Shown one piece after another: positions 42,365 through 49,337 of a stretch of 64,000 nt of DNA. The stretch lies in NCBI RefSeq assembly GCF_022869805.1, contig NZ_CP094974.1, forward strand, positions 372,001 through 436,000. The letters are read 5' to 3'. The notes below the pieces were generated by a model that saw only the letters and a list, made by a program, of their open reading frames with translations, was not told the origin of the DNA and ran no database searches. Source of the stretch: Halosolutus halophilus (GTDB lineage Archaea > Halobacteriota > Halobacteria > Halobacteriales > Natrialbaceae). How positions within the stretch are numbered: position 1 is the first letter of the stretch; each line of letters begins with the position of its first letter. The position numbers and the translations under genes are program-made.

Positions 42365-45300
42365 TCACTCGGAGAACGCGTCGTCGGCGCAGCCGAGCGA
42401 CGTGTGCATGCAGTCCCGGCAGTGGGGGCCACACTGGGCAGTTCCGAACTCGCTCTCGTCCGCGGTCCGGAGGTCCGCCGTCAACTGGGATCGCCTGTCC
42501 AGCAACTGGGCGGCGGAAAACAGCTGGACGTCGGGACCGTTCGAACCGACGTAGACGTACCCGGCCGTTCGGATCGGCGTCGAGAACACGTCCCGGGCGG
42601 CGAGGAGGTACAGCAGCAACTGGTAACTCTCCCCCGGTTCCGTACGCTGACTCCCGGTCTTGTAATCGAGGATCACGACGTTCCCGTCGTCGTCCCGCTT
42701 GATCGCGTCGATCGCACCGACGATCGGACCGCTCAGGTCCGGGTCGTAGTCCGCGAGTTCGAACGGGACTTCCGCGCCGAGCGATTCCCAGTCGGCGGCC
42801 CGTGTCTCGAAGTATCGATCGACGCAGGCTTTCGCCCCCGGAACGGCCTCCTCGAGGTCGTGGAGTCGCCCGAGTCGATCGCAGGCCGTCCGCCACTCGT
42901 CGGGATCGGTGTAGTCCCGCCAGAACGCCGCTTCCGCGACGAAGTGGAACAGGTTCCCGATCGCGACGGGTGACGCGCCGGTCGCGTCGGACGAGTCCGG
43001 GAGGCTGTACCCGAGCGGGTCCGCGAACGCGTCGACGACGTGATCGAGTACGTGACGTCGGTCGCACTGCCCGACCGTCTCGACGGCGCTGTGGCTGTGA
43101 CGACGCTCCAGTTCCCGCGCGACGCCACCCGTGAGGTCCGTCCGGAACCCGACGGCCTCGGGATCGACCGACGAGAGCGTCCCCGCGCGGAGTTGCCGGG
43201 CCAGTCCCAGCGCCTCGTCGATCGCGTCGTCGAGGGCGATGGGCGTCTGGAAGTACTGGAGCGACATCGACTCGCGGTCCAGTCCGGCGTCGATCTCCTC
43301 CGTGAGATCGGTTCTGAACCGCTCGTCGAGTCCCTCGTAGCTGTCGGTGATCCGGTCCCAGACGTCCATGTGCGGGCCGGCGACGCTCCACTCGACGTCG
43401 TCGGAGAGGTACTCGTCGAGTTGGCTGGCCGGGACGTCGGGCGCGTCGGGGTCGGTGCCGAAGAGGAACAGCCGTTCTTTCGCGCGGGTCAGCCCGACGT
43501 GGAGCACCCGCCACTCCTCCGGTACTTCCCCCGCCGAGTGGTCGGTCCACAGCGAGGTGGTCCGATCGCCGTCGACGAGATCCACGAGCGCGGCGAACGA
43601 GTGGGTCGACCGGGGATAGGGGTTCGGAACGTCCCCGGGCGGGAGCGGCGGCCAGTTGTCGGCGCTCAGGAACGGGAGCATCACGACGTCGAACTCCAGC
43701 CCCTTGGCCTGGAAGATCGTCATGACGTCGACCTTGTCCCCCGTCCCCTCCGCCGTCTCCAGTTCGCCGCCCGGCTCTCGTCTGGTGACCTCCCCCTGCA
43801 GTTCGAGATACGAGACGAACTCCTCGGTGAGCATCGACTGCGTGACCCGGCCCTCGTCGAACGACTCCATGAGTCGTTCGATCGCGGCGAGTTCCCGCCG
43901 CTCGGAAGCCGTCAGGAACCACTCGAACCGCGTCTCCCGCTTGAGTTCGGCGTAGAGTTCCGAGATCGACAGCCGGTGGCGCTCCGATCGGAGGGTCTCG
44001 ACGTCCGCCCGCGCTCGCTCGATGCGCTCCGGCGCGGCGAACTCGCTCGCCGGCCGATCGGCCATCGCGCGGTACGTGCTCGTCTCGCCGCGGTTGAGCC
44101 GCTCCAGATCGGATTCGGGGACGCGGTAGAACATCGCCAGGACCCGGCTGAGACTGCCGTCGTCGTGTGGATCGACGAGCACCCGGAGGAAGGCGAGCAC
44201 CGTCTCGATCCCCGGAGACGTCCTGGCGCCCATGTCGTGGGCCAGTTCGTAGGGCAGACAGGCCTCGTCGAGCTGGGCGGCGACCAGATTGGCCTGTCGC
44301 TTCGTCCGGACGAGTACGGCGACGTCACCCAGCTCGGGTGCCTCGATCGCGGCGAGTTCACCCTTGACCAGCTTCGAGATGGCCGTGCTGACCTGTGCCG
44401 CCTGCTCGTCCTCGTCGTCCGCCGCGTCGACCGTGACGACGGCGTTCTCGACGTCGTCTTTGAACGCGTCGAGTCCGTGCGTATCGGCCGGCAGGTCGGC
44501 GACCAGATCGAGGATCGCGTCCGGCGATCGGAAGTTCAGGTCCAGCGTGTAGCGTTCGAACCCGTCGAGTTCGCCGGTGATCCGATCCATGTTCTCGGGG
44601 TGGGCACCCCGCCACTCGTAGATCGCCTGGTCCTGATCGCCGATGACGAACAGCTCCGTCTCGGCGCCCAGCGTGGCGATGAGGTCGAGTTGCGCGTCGT
44701 CGGTGTCCTGGAACTCGTCACAGAGGAGCAGATCCCACTGGTCGACGATCCCCGATCGGACGGCGTCGTCCGCCAGTAACGCGGTGGCCTGCCGAATGAG
44801 ATCGTCGTAATCGAGGGCCTGCTGAAACTCGCCGTCACCGGCGAGTTCTCGCTCGTAGGCCCGGTAGCCGGGGAGGAAGTCGTGGGTCTGCTGGAGCATC
44901 TCGACGTAGGCGACGAGCCGTCCGATCGGCGTCTGGTAGGTGTCGGTGAAAAAGGAGGGCACGTTGCCGGCGAAGAGGACCTGCGGGACGAACCGCTCGT
45001 ACCAGCTCGAAGCGCCGTTCAACAGCAGGTCCTCCAGTTCGTCGACGAGGTCGACCATCGAGCCGAGGTAGTCGGCCACCTCGGCCTCGACGGGCGTCCC
45101 GGATTCGAGCCCCCGCTGTTTGTGCTCGAGCACTACCCGGTACTTTCGGAATCGATCGCGAAACGCGAGCGGATCGTCGGTGAGAGTCGGGTTCCGATCC
45201 GTGTCGAACAGCCGCCGGCCGAGGTCGTGCAGTTCCCGGACCAGTTCCGACAGGCGGGCGATCGTGGCGGTCTCGGGTAGCGTTTCGGCGACCTCGTCGG

Positions 45301-45844
45301 GAGTGACGCCCGCCCGTTTGACGTCCTCGATGAAGTCGATGAGGTCTCGCTCGACTCGGTCGGCACCGGTCCGGGCGTCGATCGGTTCGACGAACCGGTA
45401 CTCGAGGTCGTCGACGAGCGACTGGACGATCGCCCGGCGGTCGTCGTCGGTGACGAGGTCGAAATCCGGCGCGAGGTCGAAGTAGTAGGCGTACTCGACG
45501 AGCAACTGCTGACAGAACGCGTGGTAGGTGTACGCGTCGACGTCGTACCCCCGCCCGTCCGCGAGCAGGTCGCCCAGGTCGTCCTGGATGGCGTGGGCGG
45601 CCTCGTTCGCGAACGTCAACACGAGGACGCGCTCCGGCGACGCCCCGCGGTTCTCTATCGCGTCCTCGATCCGCCACGCCATCGTCTGCGTCTTGCCGGT
45701 GCCGGCCCCGGCGCTGACGAGGATCCGCTCGTCCGTCGCGGCGATGACGTCGCGCTGGTTCCCTCGCGGCCGGAGTTGCGCGTCGTCCGTCGCGACGGCA
45801 TCCGGAACTCCGTCGCCCGTGACTGCTGGCCCTCGATCGGTCAT
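42365..45844 (-). CDS. UvrD/Rep-type helicase fused to a PD-(D/E)XK nuclease (AddA-like)
   Basis: A 1159-residue superfamily-1 helicase with a nuclease domain. Walker A is SAGAGTGKTQTM, motif II is DEFQDTDDAQ, motif III is GDQDQAIYEWRG and the helicase C-terminal motifs follow (VMTIFQAKGLEFDVVMLPFL, then LHVGLTRAKERLFLF). The C-terminal nuclease has AIDAIKRDDDGNVVILDYKTGS, an intact D...DxK site. Cysteines C1138, C1142, C1145 and C1152 plus one in CDRRHVLDH may form an Fe-S clamp. The layout resembles AddA of AddAB. The start ATG at 45844 lies inside a 23-bp tandem repeat. It is the last gene of a three-gene operon. Confidence 0.88.
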   Translation of the reverse strand: MTDRGPAVTGDGVPDAVATDDAQLRPRGNQRDVIAATDERILVSAGAGTGKTQTMAWRIEDAIENRGASPERVLVLTFANEAAHAIQDDLGDLLADGRGYDVDAYTYHAFCQQLLVEYAYYFDLAPDFDLVTDDDRRAIVQSLVDDLEYRFVEPIDARTGADRVERDLIDFIEDVKRAGVTPDEVAETLPETATIARLSELVRELHDLGRRLFDTDRNPTLTDDPLAFRDRFRKYRVVLEHKQRGLESGTPVEAEVADYLGSMVDLVDELEDLLLNGASSWYERFVPQVLFAGNVPSFFTDTYQTPIGRLVAYVEMLQQTHDFLPGYRAYERELAGDGEFQQALDYDDLIRQATALLADDAVRSGIVDQWDLLLCDEFQDTDDAQLDLIATLGAETELFVIGDQDQAIYEWRGAHPENMDRITGELDGFERYTLDLNFRSPDAILDLVADLPADTHGLDAFKDDVENAVVTVDAADDEDEQAAQVSTAISKLVKGELAAIEAPELGDVAVLVRTKRQANLVAAQLDEACLPYELAHDMGARTSPGIETVLAFLRVLVDPHDDGSLSRVLAMFYRVPESDLERLNRGETSTYRAMADRPASEFAAPERIERARADVETLRSERHRLSISELYAELKRETRFEWFLTASERRELAAIERLMESFDEGRVTQSMLTEEFVSYLELQGEVTRREPGGELETAEGTGDKVDVMTIFQAKGLEFDVVMLPFLSADNWPPLPPGDVPNPYPRSTHSFAALVDLVDGDRTTSLWTDHSAGEVPEEWRVLHVGLTRAKERLFLFGTDPDAPDVPASQLDEYLSDDVEWSVAGPHMDVWDRITDSYEGLDERFRTDLTEEIDAGLDRESMSLQYFQTPIALDDAIDEALGLARQLRAGTLSSVDPEAVGFRTDLTGGVARELERRHSHSAVETVGQCDRRHVLDHVVDAFADPLGYSLPDSSDATGASPVAIGNLFHFVAEAAFWRDYTDPDEWRTACDRLGRLHDLEEAVPGAKACVDRYFETRAADWESLGAEVPFELADYDPDLSGPIVGAIDAIKRDDDGNVVILDYKTGSQRTEPGESYQLLLYLLAARDVFSTPIRTAGYVYVGSNGPDVQLFSAAQLLDRRSQLTADLRTADESEFGTAQCGPHCRDCMHTSLGCADDAFSE

Positions 45845-45968
45845 GGTCTCGGCCCTCGATCGGTCATGGTCTCGGCCCTCGATCGGTCATGGTCTCGGCC
45901 CTCGATCGGTCATGGTCTCGGCCCTCGATCGGTCATGGTCTCGGCCCTCGATCGGTCATGGTCTCGGC
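45828..45968. repeat. 23-bp tandem repeat carrying the helicase start codon
   Basis: Five full 23-nt copies start at 45841, 45864, 45887, 45910 and 45933, with a partial copy on each side. Every copy contains catggtc, so on the minus strand each offers an ATG followed by the codons for TDRG, and each also carries a GAGG. Because 23 is not a multiple of three, successive ATGs are in different frames; only the promoter-distal one at 45844 opens the helicase frame. The remaining 213-nt gap up to 46057 holds no gene. Confidence 0.9.
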
Positions 45969-46057
45969 TCCGGAGTGTACGCGTGGGACAGCGTCGCTCG
46001 TCGACGCGGTTCGGTCGTGTCGTCCCGATTTCGCGCCGGGACGTGACCCGCCACCCG

Positions 46058-47011
46058 TCAGAATTGCACCTCCTCGTTGATGTAGTCCAGACACATCGAC
46101 TGGTACTTGCAGCGGCGACAGGACCGGGCGACGACGTCGTCCCACCGATCGGCGGCCGGTTCCCAGTCCTCGTCGACGATCCGTCCGGCTGCCTCGGCGA
46201 GGACGTCGTCACACGCTCCGCCGGCGTCCCAGCAGGCGTCCGTCACGTCCCGCCGATCCGCGACCACCTGGGGGCCGGACCGGGGTGCCTGCCCGTCGTC
46301 CTCGTAGTCCGGGTAGGTCTCCTGGGCGATCGCGTAGTAGCGGTAGCGGACGTTGTGGACGTCGATCCCGTGGGCCGCCGCGACGGCGTGGATCGTCGCG
46401 TACGCCCGGAGGACGCTCCCGACCTGCCGGGGATAAAAGCCCTCCCGGTCCCGGTAGTCCGCGACTGGATCGCTGTAGGGGTTCTCCCAGACGATCCCGT
46501 CGAGTGTCGTGACGAACCGTGCGACCTCGTAGGTCCCGCCGTCCGTCAGACAGCAATCGACGGGACAGGCGAACGTGTACCCACCCGCCGAGTAGGCGTA
46601 GGTCCCGTCGATCGCGAGCGCGCCTTCGGCGTGGGCCCGCCCGTACTCGTCGACGTAGTTCGCGACGGCGTTCCGGATACTGGCCTCGTCGTACCGCCGG
46701 TGACGGGCGGTCGCGAGCCGGGAGTCGGCCTCGGTCGACGCGTCCAGCCGCTCCTGCAGGGACTCCATCGCCGTCTCGCGGAGCGTCGCGTCGTCCCCTC
46801 CGTCACACCGCTCGAGCGCCGACGTGACGACGTCCCGGTACAGCCCGGTCCGGCGATCGATCGCGTCCCGGGTCGTCCGCGTGTAAATCGCCTGGCGGTG
46901 TTCGTACTGGTACTGGCGGGGACAGCGGAGGTACGTCTCGATCTCGTCGAGCCCGATCGGGTCGTCCGCGTTCGCGTCCGGGTTCGACGCGGGCTCGCGA
47001 TCACTCGCCAT
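46058..47011 (-). CDS. Fe-S PD-(D/E)XK-type protein, nuclease half of a split AddB
   Basis: A 317-residue protein. Cysteines C30 (in YLRCPRQYQYEH), C298, C301 and C307 (CRRCKYQSMC) form the exact C-x(n)-C-x2-C-x5-C pattern of the iron-sulfur-clamped nuclease family of AddB, Cas4 and Dna2. The expected D...(D/E)xK site reads VDCCLTDGGTYEVARF, so the catalytic lysine seems absent and nuclease activity is uncertain. It overlaps the upstream gene by 11 nt, so it is translationally coupled. The start is ATG 47011; ATG 47038 is an alternative. It probably acts as a subunit of the helicase-nuclease complex. Confidence 0.78.
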   Translation of the reverse strand: MASDREPASNPDANADDPIGLDEIETYLRCPRQYQYEHRQAIYTRTTRDAIDRRTGLYRDVVTSALERCDGGDDATLRETAMESLQERLDASTEADSRLATARHRRYDEASIRNAVANYVDEYGRAHAEGALAIDGTYAYSAGGYTFACPVDCCLTDGGTYEVARFVTTLDGIVWENPYSDPVADYRDREGFYPRQVGSVLRAYATIHAVAAAHGIDVHNVRYRYYAIAQETYPDYEDDGQAPRSGPQVVADRRDVTDACWDAGGACDDVLAEAAGRIVDEDWEPAADRWDDVVARSCRRCKYQSMCLDYINEEVQF

Positions 47012-49196
47012 CGCGTCCCTCCGACCCGTGGTCTCCATCGCGTCCTCCCGTCCCGCAGTCGCCACCGCGTCCCACCTCGCCGAGGGCCCGATCGATCTGT
47101 GCGTACACCGCCTGTTCGAACCGCGGGTCGAGCTCGTCGGACTCGAGCAGCGCACCGATCGCCCCGAACGATCGCTCGGCCCGTCTGAGATCGTACTCGG
47201 AACCCGTACTGGCCGCTCCCTGGATCCGTTCGAGCTGGTCCCACGGCTCCGACAGCACCGCCGTGCTCGCCTCGCCGTGCGTGTAGATGCCACGTTCGGC
47301 GTCCTCGGAACCGATTTCGACGACCGGGACCGCCTCGCGGTCCTCGAGGTCCGTGAGATAGCGCGAGCGGTGCTGTCGTTTGCCGAGCGCCGACTCGTTC
47401 GTCCGCGACGTACAGCAGTAGAGGCGCTGGCCCGCCGCTCGCGCCCCGATCGCCAGCTGACGTCTGGCGAGTTCGGCGTAGTAGGACTCGTAGGGTTCGT
47501 CTATCGTCTCGGGTGCGGTCTCGAACGTGGCCCGCACGTCCGCGGCGGTGGGCGTCGTCACGCCGGGGTAGCCAGGCATCTCCCGCACCCACTGGCGGGG
47601 AAACAGCTGGGTCAGCTGTCTCGATTCGGGATACTGGCCCTCGTGGACGTTCACCAGGAACACCGCCTTCCGCCGGTCGTGTTTGCAGATCCGGACGGCG
47701 TCGACGAGCACGCCGCTCTCCTCGACGTCGACGGCCGTCGAGTAGGTGTCCGAGGCGACGTAGGTGATCGCTCGCTCCAGCATCCGCACGAATCCGTCCC
47801 AGGTGTTCGCCAGGTAGTCGGCCGTCTCGACGAACGCCGCGACGTCGAGCACCCGCTCGACGTGGTGAAATTGTGCGCGCGCCTCGATGGGTTCGCTCTC
47901 CGCGATCCGCCGTTTGAGGTCGGTTTCGAGGATCCAGCGGCCGAGTTTCTCGGGAACGCCGGATTCGTCGGCCACGGCAGCGAGCGCCGCTTCCGGCCAC
48001 CCACCCAGCCGATCGGTGAGGATCCGGCGGGCGCGCTCGCGGCCCTGGCGATCGGACGCGGCGTGATACGCGGCGAGGGCGTGGAGTTCCCGCACCGCCC
48101 GGTCCCCGCTCAGGCCCGTCACCGTCGCGGACGCGGTCGGGATCCCGGCCCGCTGGAGCACCCGGCGGGCCGTTTGAATCGGCCCGGTCGAGTCCTTGAC
48201 GAGGACGGCGACGTCGCCGTAGGTCCAGTCGTACTCGGTCCGGAGGTAGCCGATCTCGTTGGCGATCGTCGCGAGTTGGTCGTAGAGGGTGTCCCCGGTG
48301 ATCGCGTAGATCGGTTCGTCGACCCCTTCGAGGACCGACTCGTCGCCGGTTGCGAGATACCGGGCGACTGCGCCGGGCGCTCCGGCCCGCTCGCGACGCC
48401 GAACTGCCGGTTCGACCGCCAGTTCTCCCCCGAGATCCTCGAGCGAGCCGGGTTCGTTCCAGACTCTCGCGATGCTGGCGTGTGCCTCGCCGAGGCACAC
48501 CAGCTCCGCGTTCTCGCCGAGCGCCGCGAGATACTCGCGTTCGACCGCGCCGAACTCCTCGAATCCGACGGCGACGATCGCCTCGAACTCCCGCTCGATC
48601 GTGGATCGGACCTCGTCGTCGTCGAGCGCCGCGATGGCCCGCGAGAGCACGTCGGGGCGTTCGACCCACCCCTGCGTCGCGAGCCAGTCGTGAAACCCCT
48701 CGCGAACGGCCTGCAATTCGGCGAGTAACTCGCTGTGGGGTCCCCGTTCCGACGCCGAGGGGAGGTCGAAGCCGCCGCCGTAGCTCGCGGCGAGCAACAC
48801 TCGACCGACGTCGCGGCCGAACGACTCGTGGCTCGCCGCGCCGGCGAAGTAGTCGTTCTCCCACGTGTGACCGTCCAGGACCATCGACAGGGTCTCGATC
48901 CGTTCCACGTCCGAGAGAATGCGCGCGTCAGGAGCGCGTTCGGTCACGACGGTCGACGCGTGTCGCGAGACGGTCTTGACGTTCGGCCGCCCGAGGAGAT
49001 CCAGTTCCTCGACGAGGGCTCGTGCGAAGTCCTCGATGCCCGTGGGAAATCGCTTCAGGACCAGAATATCGGTCACGTCGTAGCCGCGATCGGTGCGCAA
49101 CTCGTCGTACACCGCGGCCGCGTGCGCCGCCAGCGTGCCGCCTTCGAACGGCACGACTCGCAGTTCGCCCCGCAGCGGGTCCGACTCAGCTGCCAT
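47001..49196 (-). CDS. UvrD-like helicase-fold protein without Walker A (AddB-like)
   Basis: A 731-residue protein, first gene of the helicase-nuclease operon. It shows C-terminal helicase features (AVFLVNVHEGQYPESR, then ELARRQLAIGARAAGQRLYCCTSRT) and an UvrD-like domain order, but the N-terminal P-loop position reads PFEGGTLAAH with no GKT/GKS, so it should not hydrolyse ATP. This is the design of the structural AddB/RexB subunit, here separated from the Fe-S nuclease domain encoded by the next gene. ATG 49196 is preferred over GTG 49223 because a minus-strand TATA-like atatgta lies at about 49235-49241, allowing a short leader before 49196 but none before 49223. Confidence 0.75.
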   Translation of the reverse strand: MAAESDPLRGELRVVPFEGGTLAAHAAAVYDELRTDRGYDVTDILVLKRFPTGIEDFARALVEELDLLGRPNVKTVSRHASTVVTERAPDARILSDVERIETLSMVLDGHTWENDYFAGAASHESFGRDVGRVLLAASYGGGFDLPSASERGPHSELLAELQAVREGFHDWLATQGWVERPDVLSRAIAALDDDEVRSTIEREFEAIVAVGFEEFGAVEREYLAALGENAELVCLGEAHASIARVWNEPGSLEDLGGELAVEPAVRRRERAGAPGAVARYLATGDESVLEGVDEPIYAITGDTLYDQLATIANEIGYLRTEYDWTYGDVAVLVKDSTGPIQTARRVLQRAGIPTASATVTGLSGDRAVRELHALAAYHAASDRQGRERARRILTDRLGGWPEAALAAVADESGVPEKLGRWILETDLKRRIAESEPIEARAQFHHVERVLDVAAFVETADYLANTWDGFVRMLERAITYVASDTYSTAVDVEESGVLVDAVRICKHDRRKAVFLVNVHEGQYPESRQLTQLFPRQWVREMPGYPGVTTPTAADVRATFETAPETIDEPYESYYAELARRQLAIGARAAGQRLYCCTSRTNESALGKRQHRSRYLTDLEDREAVPVVEIGSEDAERGIYTHGEASTAVLSEPWDQLERIQGAASTGSEYDLRRAERSFGAIGALLESDELDPRFEQAVYAQIDRALGEVGRGGDCGTGGRDGDHGSEGRDGE

Positions 49197-49337
49197 GCGC
49201 CAGCGGCGATCGGCTCGCGTCACTCCGGGGACCGTACATATGACGCAGAAACGGAATGTCTCGATAAATAGTTTGTGGGGCGGTGGCGGCCCGTCCGCTA
49301 CAGTCCAGCCGCCGGTCCGGGGACGGATTCGGGGCCG

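Follow-up and report, generated by a model that had tools for sequence, protein, structure and literature searches.

The window analysed here is a stretch of 64,000 nucleotides from the haloarchaeon Halosolutus halophilus (assembly GCF_022869805.1, contig NZ_CP094974.1, positions 372,001 to 436,000 of the forward strand). Three neighbouring genes on its reverse strand (genes 1, 2 and 3, together the trio; Table 1) had been described in an earlier note, made without database searches, as an AddAB-like complex in which AddB is split. AddAB and RecBCD are regarded as bacterial enzymes, and bacterial AddB joins a helicase-like part and an iron-sulphur (Fe-S) nuclease in one protein. We read the trio, with a probability of about 0.8, as an AddAB-type DNA-end helicase-nuclease that carries its AddB on two polypeptides, retains one nuclease and has an end-processing role on the chromosome. 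The overlap of genes 1 and 2, which had been noticed before and is confirmed here (47011–47001), suggests that the two genes are translationally coupled.

Table 1. Features of the trio locus, numbered from the first letter of the window.
Feature	Positions	Strand	Description
Gene 1	47001..49196	-	Helicase-like part of AddB, 731 aa; superfamily 1 (SF1) fold without Walker A
Gene 2	46058..47011	-	Fe-S PD-(D/E)XK protein corresponding to the nuclease part of AddB, 317 aa
Gene 3	42365..45844	-	AddA-like UvrD helicase and PD-(D/E)XK nuclease, 1159 aa; motifs all intact
Overlap of genes 1 and 2	47001..47011	-	Exactly 11 nt
Spacer between genes 2 and 3	45845..46057	-	213 nt; holds most of the tandem repeat
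Tandem repeat	45828..45968	.	6.1 perfect 23-bp direct repeats, gene 3 start codon included
TATTTAT	49264..49270	-	Possible archaeal TATA box upstream of gene 1, as read from the sequence

The three proteins

As a single sequence, gene 1 had no match in Pfam, NCBIfam or PDB. Its profile (A1) had AddB of Bacillus subtilis as the top PDB match (3u44_B, E 1.8e-8, residues 50–370), and with its AlphaFold2 (AF2) model (predicted local distance difference test, pLDDT, 82.5) the Foldseek match ranking first was again AddB (4ceh_B, E 1.9e-20), the model aligning over 629 residues with AddB 2–768 (Z 23, VIA). Fold comparison was the means by which the earlier note proposed to challenge its own assignment, and it leaves gene 1 inside the helicase/AddB group. 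The note had also claimed a helicase fold lacking Walker A; the fold is of the UvrD/AddB kind, and no Walker A was found in the aligned zone of 36 gene 1 homologues. B. subtilis AddB has an ATP-binding site of its own (PMC4824097). Many residues of gene 1 are invariant, and it has a conserved motif, LTQLFPxxWL, within a long conserved insertion (LTQLFPxxWLxxMP) at the position of the AddB domain 2A latch.

Gene 2 matches the Pfam family PDDEXK_1 (E 2.5e-5). Its AF2 model (pLDDT 86.7) finds its best match in AddB 779–1138 (Z 15.9 over 273 residues, VIA), tied with AdnA (Z 15.8), while CRISPR Cas4 chains reach at most 12.6. The gene 2 profile met only unrelated weak matches among PDB sequences, so that the assignment of this gene rests on Pfam, on the fold and on hhalign. 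The C-x(n)-C-x2-C-x5-C pattern by which gene 2 had first been recognised as an Fe-S PD-(D/E)XK protein corresponds to C30, C298, C301 and C307. All but C298 are invariant, and C298 itself occurs in 35 of 36 homologues (the exception is L038). The suspected loss of its catalytic lysine is real (V167) and extends to the aspartate (R165). A joint alignment of gene 2 with the nuclease domains of unsplit haloarchaeal AddB (A4, described below) shows D..K in the A4 type and in one clade of the split form, and R..V or similar residues in the other clade, to which the window belongs; the cysteines are kept in both clades. Judged by these residues, the gene 2 nuclease is dead throughout the clade of the window. 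We refer to the two as the active and the dead clade.

A protein of this fold could instead be of the Cas4 kind and work in CRISPR or some other pathway, its link to the helicase genes being incidental. Weak Cas4 profile matches do cover the region of the first cysteine (16.1 bits, below the curated cut-off of 65), and Cas4 folds, Argonaute-associated ones among them, occur in the list of structural matches. The AddB nuclease domain matches better, however, by the Z values given above, gene 2 always adjoins gene 1, and no cas gene was recognised among the window neighbours examined; we consider the Cas4 assignment highly improbable.

Gene 3 is matched by the Pfam families UvrD-helicase, UvrD_C and PDDEXK_1. 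All its SF1 motifs are present, and the helicase and nuclease residues examined, D1046, D1060, K1062 and Q1075 among them, are conserved without exception in the 44 trio homologues, in keeping with its earlier description as an active-looking helicase-nuclease. It also matches models of Gabija GajB via the shared UvrD core; genes 1 and 2 gave no match to GajA models. A feature that had gone unreported is a cysteine quartet of Fe-S type in gene 3 itself (C927, C1142, C1145 and C1152), invariant in all 44 trio AddA. Because these four invariant cysteines come in addition to those of gene 2, the trio would probably hold two Fe-S clusters, and a dead nuclease would bear one of the two.

Split and unsplit AddB in haloarchaea

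The AddB ranges covered by gene 1 (2–768) and gene 2 (779–1138) abut, so that the gene break falls at a domain boundary of AddB. When the order was searched with the AddB model TIGR02773, the weak matches were long AddB-like genes adjoining AddA-like genes, and 17 such unsplit haloarchaeal AddB make up the alignment A4. Compared with B. subtilis AddB, A4 gave an E value of 6.6e-22 with segments spanning the N- to C-terminal regions; gene 1 aligns to A4 31–567 (98%, E 1e-13) and gene 2 to A4 713–1032 (95%, E 2.5e-8). That haloarchaea carry an unsplit AddB beside AddA argues that the split is real. Sequence profile, fold and these unsplit relatives of the same order all agree with the split first proposed in the earlier note, and support, at the level of sequence and model, the view that genes 1 and 2 together represent one AddB divided over two genes.

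In a sample of 391 genomes of the order, the A4 profile matches 85, and at least one form of AddB, split or unsplit, is present in 208. Mutual exclusion of the two forms was considered and rejected, as 27 genomes hold both (Fisher p 0.17; outside the family of the window, p 1.0).

The gene 3/AddA tree (a quick IQ-TREE analysis) places the AddA of the split form in one group with a support of 100, whose halves are the rows with an active gene 2 (support 100) and those with a dead one (99), and the AddA of the unsplit form in another group (96). The tree has long branches and an uncertain root; its simplest reading is that a single split came first and that the gene 2 nuclease was then lost once, in the half that contains the window. 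We infer a loss and not a gain because the unsplit relatives of A4 type keep an intact site. There is also a third, small lineage of unsplit AddB-AddA (L134, L136 and L137), with extra conserved cysteines in AddB and no D..K at the aligned position, which possibly lost its AddB nuclease independently.

Distribution and genomic context

In a first search, 32 of 61 genomes proved to have a gene 1 homologue. Regions of about 16 kb surrounding 35 of the gene 1 loci were extracted for comparison of gene order, and the trio was present in identical order at every one of these 35, with most adjacent genes overlapping by 4 or 8 nt; it was also present at further loci from other families. Conservation of this order at 35 of 35 loci indicates that the arrangement is not due to chance. 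In the larger sample, the A1 profile matches 150 of the 391 genomes, 94 of them among the 106 Natrialbaceae (89%), the family of the window, and 56 among the 285 genomes elsewhere in the order. No gene 1 homologue was found in the phages searched. Outside the order, the profile gave seven weak matches, all of them UvrD-PD-(D/E)XK helicase-nucleases that have no AddB as partner; one of the seven adjoins NB-ARC and methylase genes.

Solo proteins of this kind carry C-terminal cysteines of Fe-S type like those of gene 3, and could be taken to mean that gene 3 is itself a solo helicase-nuclease of UvrD-Cas4 type, genes 1 and 2 being regulatory or the decaying remnants of an AddB. Such proteins exist elsewhere in the phylum, their class has been described (PMC5704561), and gene 2 is dead here. 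Genes 1 and 2 are nevertheless intact, contain many invariant residues and keep their order with gene 3 at every locus examined, and genes in decay would not be expected to retain four cysteines or the motif LTQLFPxxWL, which makes a solo gene 3 unlikely in our view.

In the window the neighbours of the trio are genes for a Na+/H+ antiporter, a DUF7343 protein, SurE and a methyltransferase; the trio sits among housekeeping genes and outside any defence island. The main part of the dead clade has chromosomal neighbours that are common across genera, namely genes for prolyl-tRNA synthetase, a NUDIX-like protein (its identity judged by inspection) and a CBS protein, at least one of which was present at 20 of 23 main-clade loci.

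In several loci of the active clade a Piwi/Argonaute gene and a PLD-domain gene lie directly upstream of the trio, a linkage that the earlier note had not reported. Of the 46 Argonaute matches in the 391 genomes, 18 have a split gene 1 no more than 10 kb away (in 14 cases the distance is 2.2–2.5 kb), and another three have an unsplit AddB within 5.4 kb; the coordinates behind these counts were transcribed by hand and, given shared ancestry, the 18 are not independent events. A second recurrent context of the active clade is represented by L056, L057 and L100, in which a PLD-like gene lies 1.4 kb downstream of the trio and a divergent AAA ATPase (DUF4143) upstream. Gene 1 was also found on 16 haloarchaeal plasmid records (e.g. 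Natronosalvus amylolyticus NZ_CP101159.1), and Halobacterium sp. DL1 has a copy beside type III restriction genes. On a plasmid of Natrinema zhouii (L150:4263-15387) Mre11-like and Rad50-like genes lie immediately upstream of a trio in which gene 2 retains D..K, and plasmid pHLAC01 of Halorubrum lacusprofundi (L152:8977-9912) carries, near transposase genes, a truncated remnant of gene 1 that has neither gene 2 nor gene 3 annotated next to it.

The position of the active sister clade beside Argonaute and PLD genes, and the copies on plasmids or next to type III restriction or Mre11/Rad50-like genes, would fit a trio that, in the lineage of the window too, is mainly a defence machine degrading linear DNA of invaders and possibly feeding other systems. 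Set against this, the clade of the window is found among housekeeping genes, in 89% of its family and with chromosomal neighbours shared across genera, and the Piwi/Argonaute gene of the window genome itself (G000:C1:2112213-2112623) lies far from the trio. Defence as the main task of this lineage is possible, although we give it clearly the smaller chance, since a copy placed among housekeeping genes makes chromosomal end processing the likelier role there.

At the level of the single locus, the spacer between genes 2 and 3 sets the window apart from its relatives, in which these genes mostly overlap or are separated by short gaps (in the two closest ones the distance is 26 and 0 nt). The array of 23-bp repeats crosses the gene 2/gene 3 junction, and each upstream copy contains an open reading frame of eight codons (MTDRGPRP) whose TGA overlaps the next ATG; in L031 and L032, the closest relatives, the repeat was sought and not found. 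For gene 1, an in-frame GTG at 49223 is a possible alternative start.

Proposed working and comparison with known systems

If the three proteins act together as an AddAB-type complex, gene 3 (AddA) would be the ATP-driven 3'-5' motor and also the sole active nuclease. Gene 1, with its motor-dead SF1 fold, would receive the 3' strand after unwinding and might search along it for a regulatory sequence, as bacterial AddB and RecC do. Gene 2 has lost D and K and kept the cysteine clamp, which makes it probable that it guides or holds one strand, like the dead nuclease domain of RecC. The whole would be a RecBC-like core consisting of one motor, one nuclease and one dead scanner, and its likeliest job in the lineage of the window would be the processing of double-strand ends on the host chromosome.

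Several findings weigh against this account. UvrD chains align to the gene 1 model with a higher Z than AddB does (28.8 versus 23), but over 513 residues, and by sequence PcrA/UvrD and AdnB outscore AddA as matches of gene 3. The C-terminal cysteines of the gene 3 quartet are absent from 16 of 18 unsplit-type haloarchaeal AddA and present in the other two. As for the scanner, it is the helicase-like part of bacterial AddB that looks for Chi, and an ionic latch of domain 2A, E129–R629, gates this part (PMC4824097). In the sequence alignment the equivalent of E129 is E in 21 of 36 gene 1 homologues and A in the window, and that of R629 is mostly T, with R in 4 of 36. With an insertion at the latch position and a salt bridge whose residues are not fully kept, we regard regulation of gene 1 by a Chi-like sequence as a possibility.

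Also on this side of the balance, a protein with a NurA domain (PF09376) is encoded in the window genome, and 111 of the 116 genomes sampled from the order have one. The domain was found in our Haloferax volcanii control as well, contrary to a review according to which H. volcanii lacks NurA (PMC7776575). We considered that the trio might fill a gap left by an absent NurA and rejected the idea, as almost every genome of the sample has a NurA-domain protein; with such a gene in the same genome, the trio would add to that route and not replace it. The suggestion of the earlier note that the trio is an alternative end-processing or defence machine thus keeps its plausibility, the clade of the window being chromosomal and its sister linked to Argonaute, and loses the replacement of NurA that it implied.

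A bolder reading is that the pair of genes 1 and 2 is an archaeal equivalent of RecC that arose independently of RecC itself, through inactivation of an AddB nuclease, and that reads a Chi-like sequence and so controls resection, while the active sister supplies or unwinds DNA for defence by Argonaute. We think this rather doubtful; if it were true, sequence-regulated end processing would exist outside bacteria.

A review of repair in H. volcanii lists Mre11-Rad50 for end resection and leaves AddA unmentioned, and a literature search, with most subscription journals outside it, found no paper on an archaeal AddAB. RecC has been proposed to originate from an ancestor of AddAB type in which the nuclease of the scanner became inactive (PMC1185551). 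The split lineage, some of whose present-day members have the second nuclease while others lack it, offers a natural parallel to this scenario. The active sister trio is moreover a specific candidate for the 'helicase' that had been noted close to Argonaute-PLD operons of haloarchaea, and its location beside Argonaute genes makes a link between repair and immunity testable in laboratory haloarchaea.

Among known systems, AddAB (B. subtilis AddB 3u44/4ceh; TIGR02773 and TIGR02785) resembles the trio in combining a motor-dead SF1 protein, an Fe-S nuclease module and AddA, in the order addB-addA, and the insertion of gene 1 falls at the domain 2A latch position. The trio differs in that its AddB is made of two genes, which overlap and are followed by gene 3 only after the spacer, in that Walker A is gone and the nuclease dead in the clade of the window, and in that its AddA carries cysteines of Fe-S type. 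The unsplit AddB-AddA of haloarchaea (A4 and A5) come from the same order of archaea and share the gene order, the lack of Walker A in AddB and the four nuclease cysteines, whereas their AddB is a single protein of 1060–1230 aa with the D..K site usually intact, their AddA is mostly without the quartet, and they form a separate group in the tree.

RecBCD, likewise, has one active nuclease in a motor subunit and, in RecC, the combination of dead helicase and dead nuclease to which genes 1 and 2 jointly correspond. The nuclease domain of RecC provides an opening for one strand of the DNA, and RecBCD evolution has been proposed to include an intermediate resembling AddAB (PMC1185551); RecC is one protein, however, and the dead nuclease of the trio retains its Fe-S cysteines. 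AdnAB of mycobacteria is a heterodimer of SF1 helicase-nucleases, and the AdnA nuclease is close to gene 2 (Z 15.8), but AdnA fuses the motor-like domain and the nuclease that the trio has as separate genes. UvrD-Cas4 fusions join a UvrD helicase to a Cas4-like Fe-S nuclease as gene 3 does, and have been reported standing alone or next to genes of restriction and methylation, with no partner resembling AddB (PMC5704561). Finally, the Argonaute-PLD pair that the trio of the sister clade directly adjoins resembles the published APAP system of haloarchaea, whose authors noted a helicase gene near some of the operons; in the parts of that paper available to us this helicase is not identified as a member of an AddAB-type set (PMC11442185). 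The copy in the window is unlinked to APAP, and it is the active sister that connects the split AddAB-type genes with these operons.

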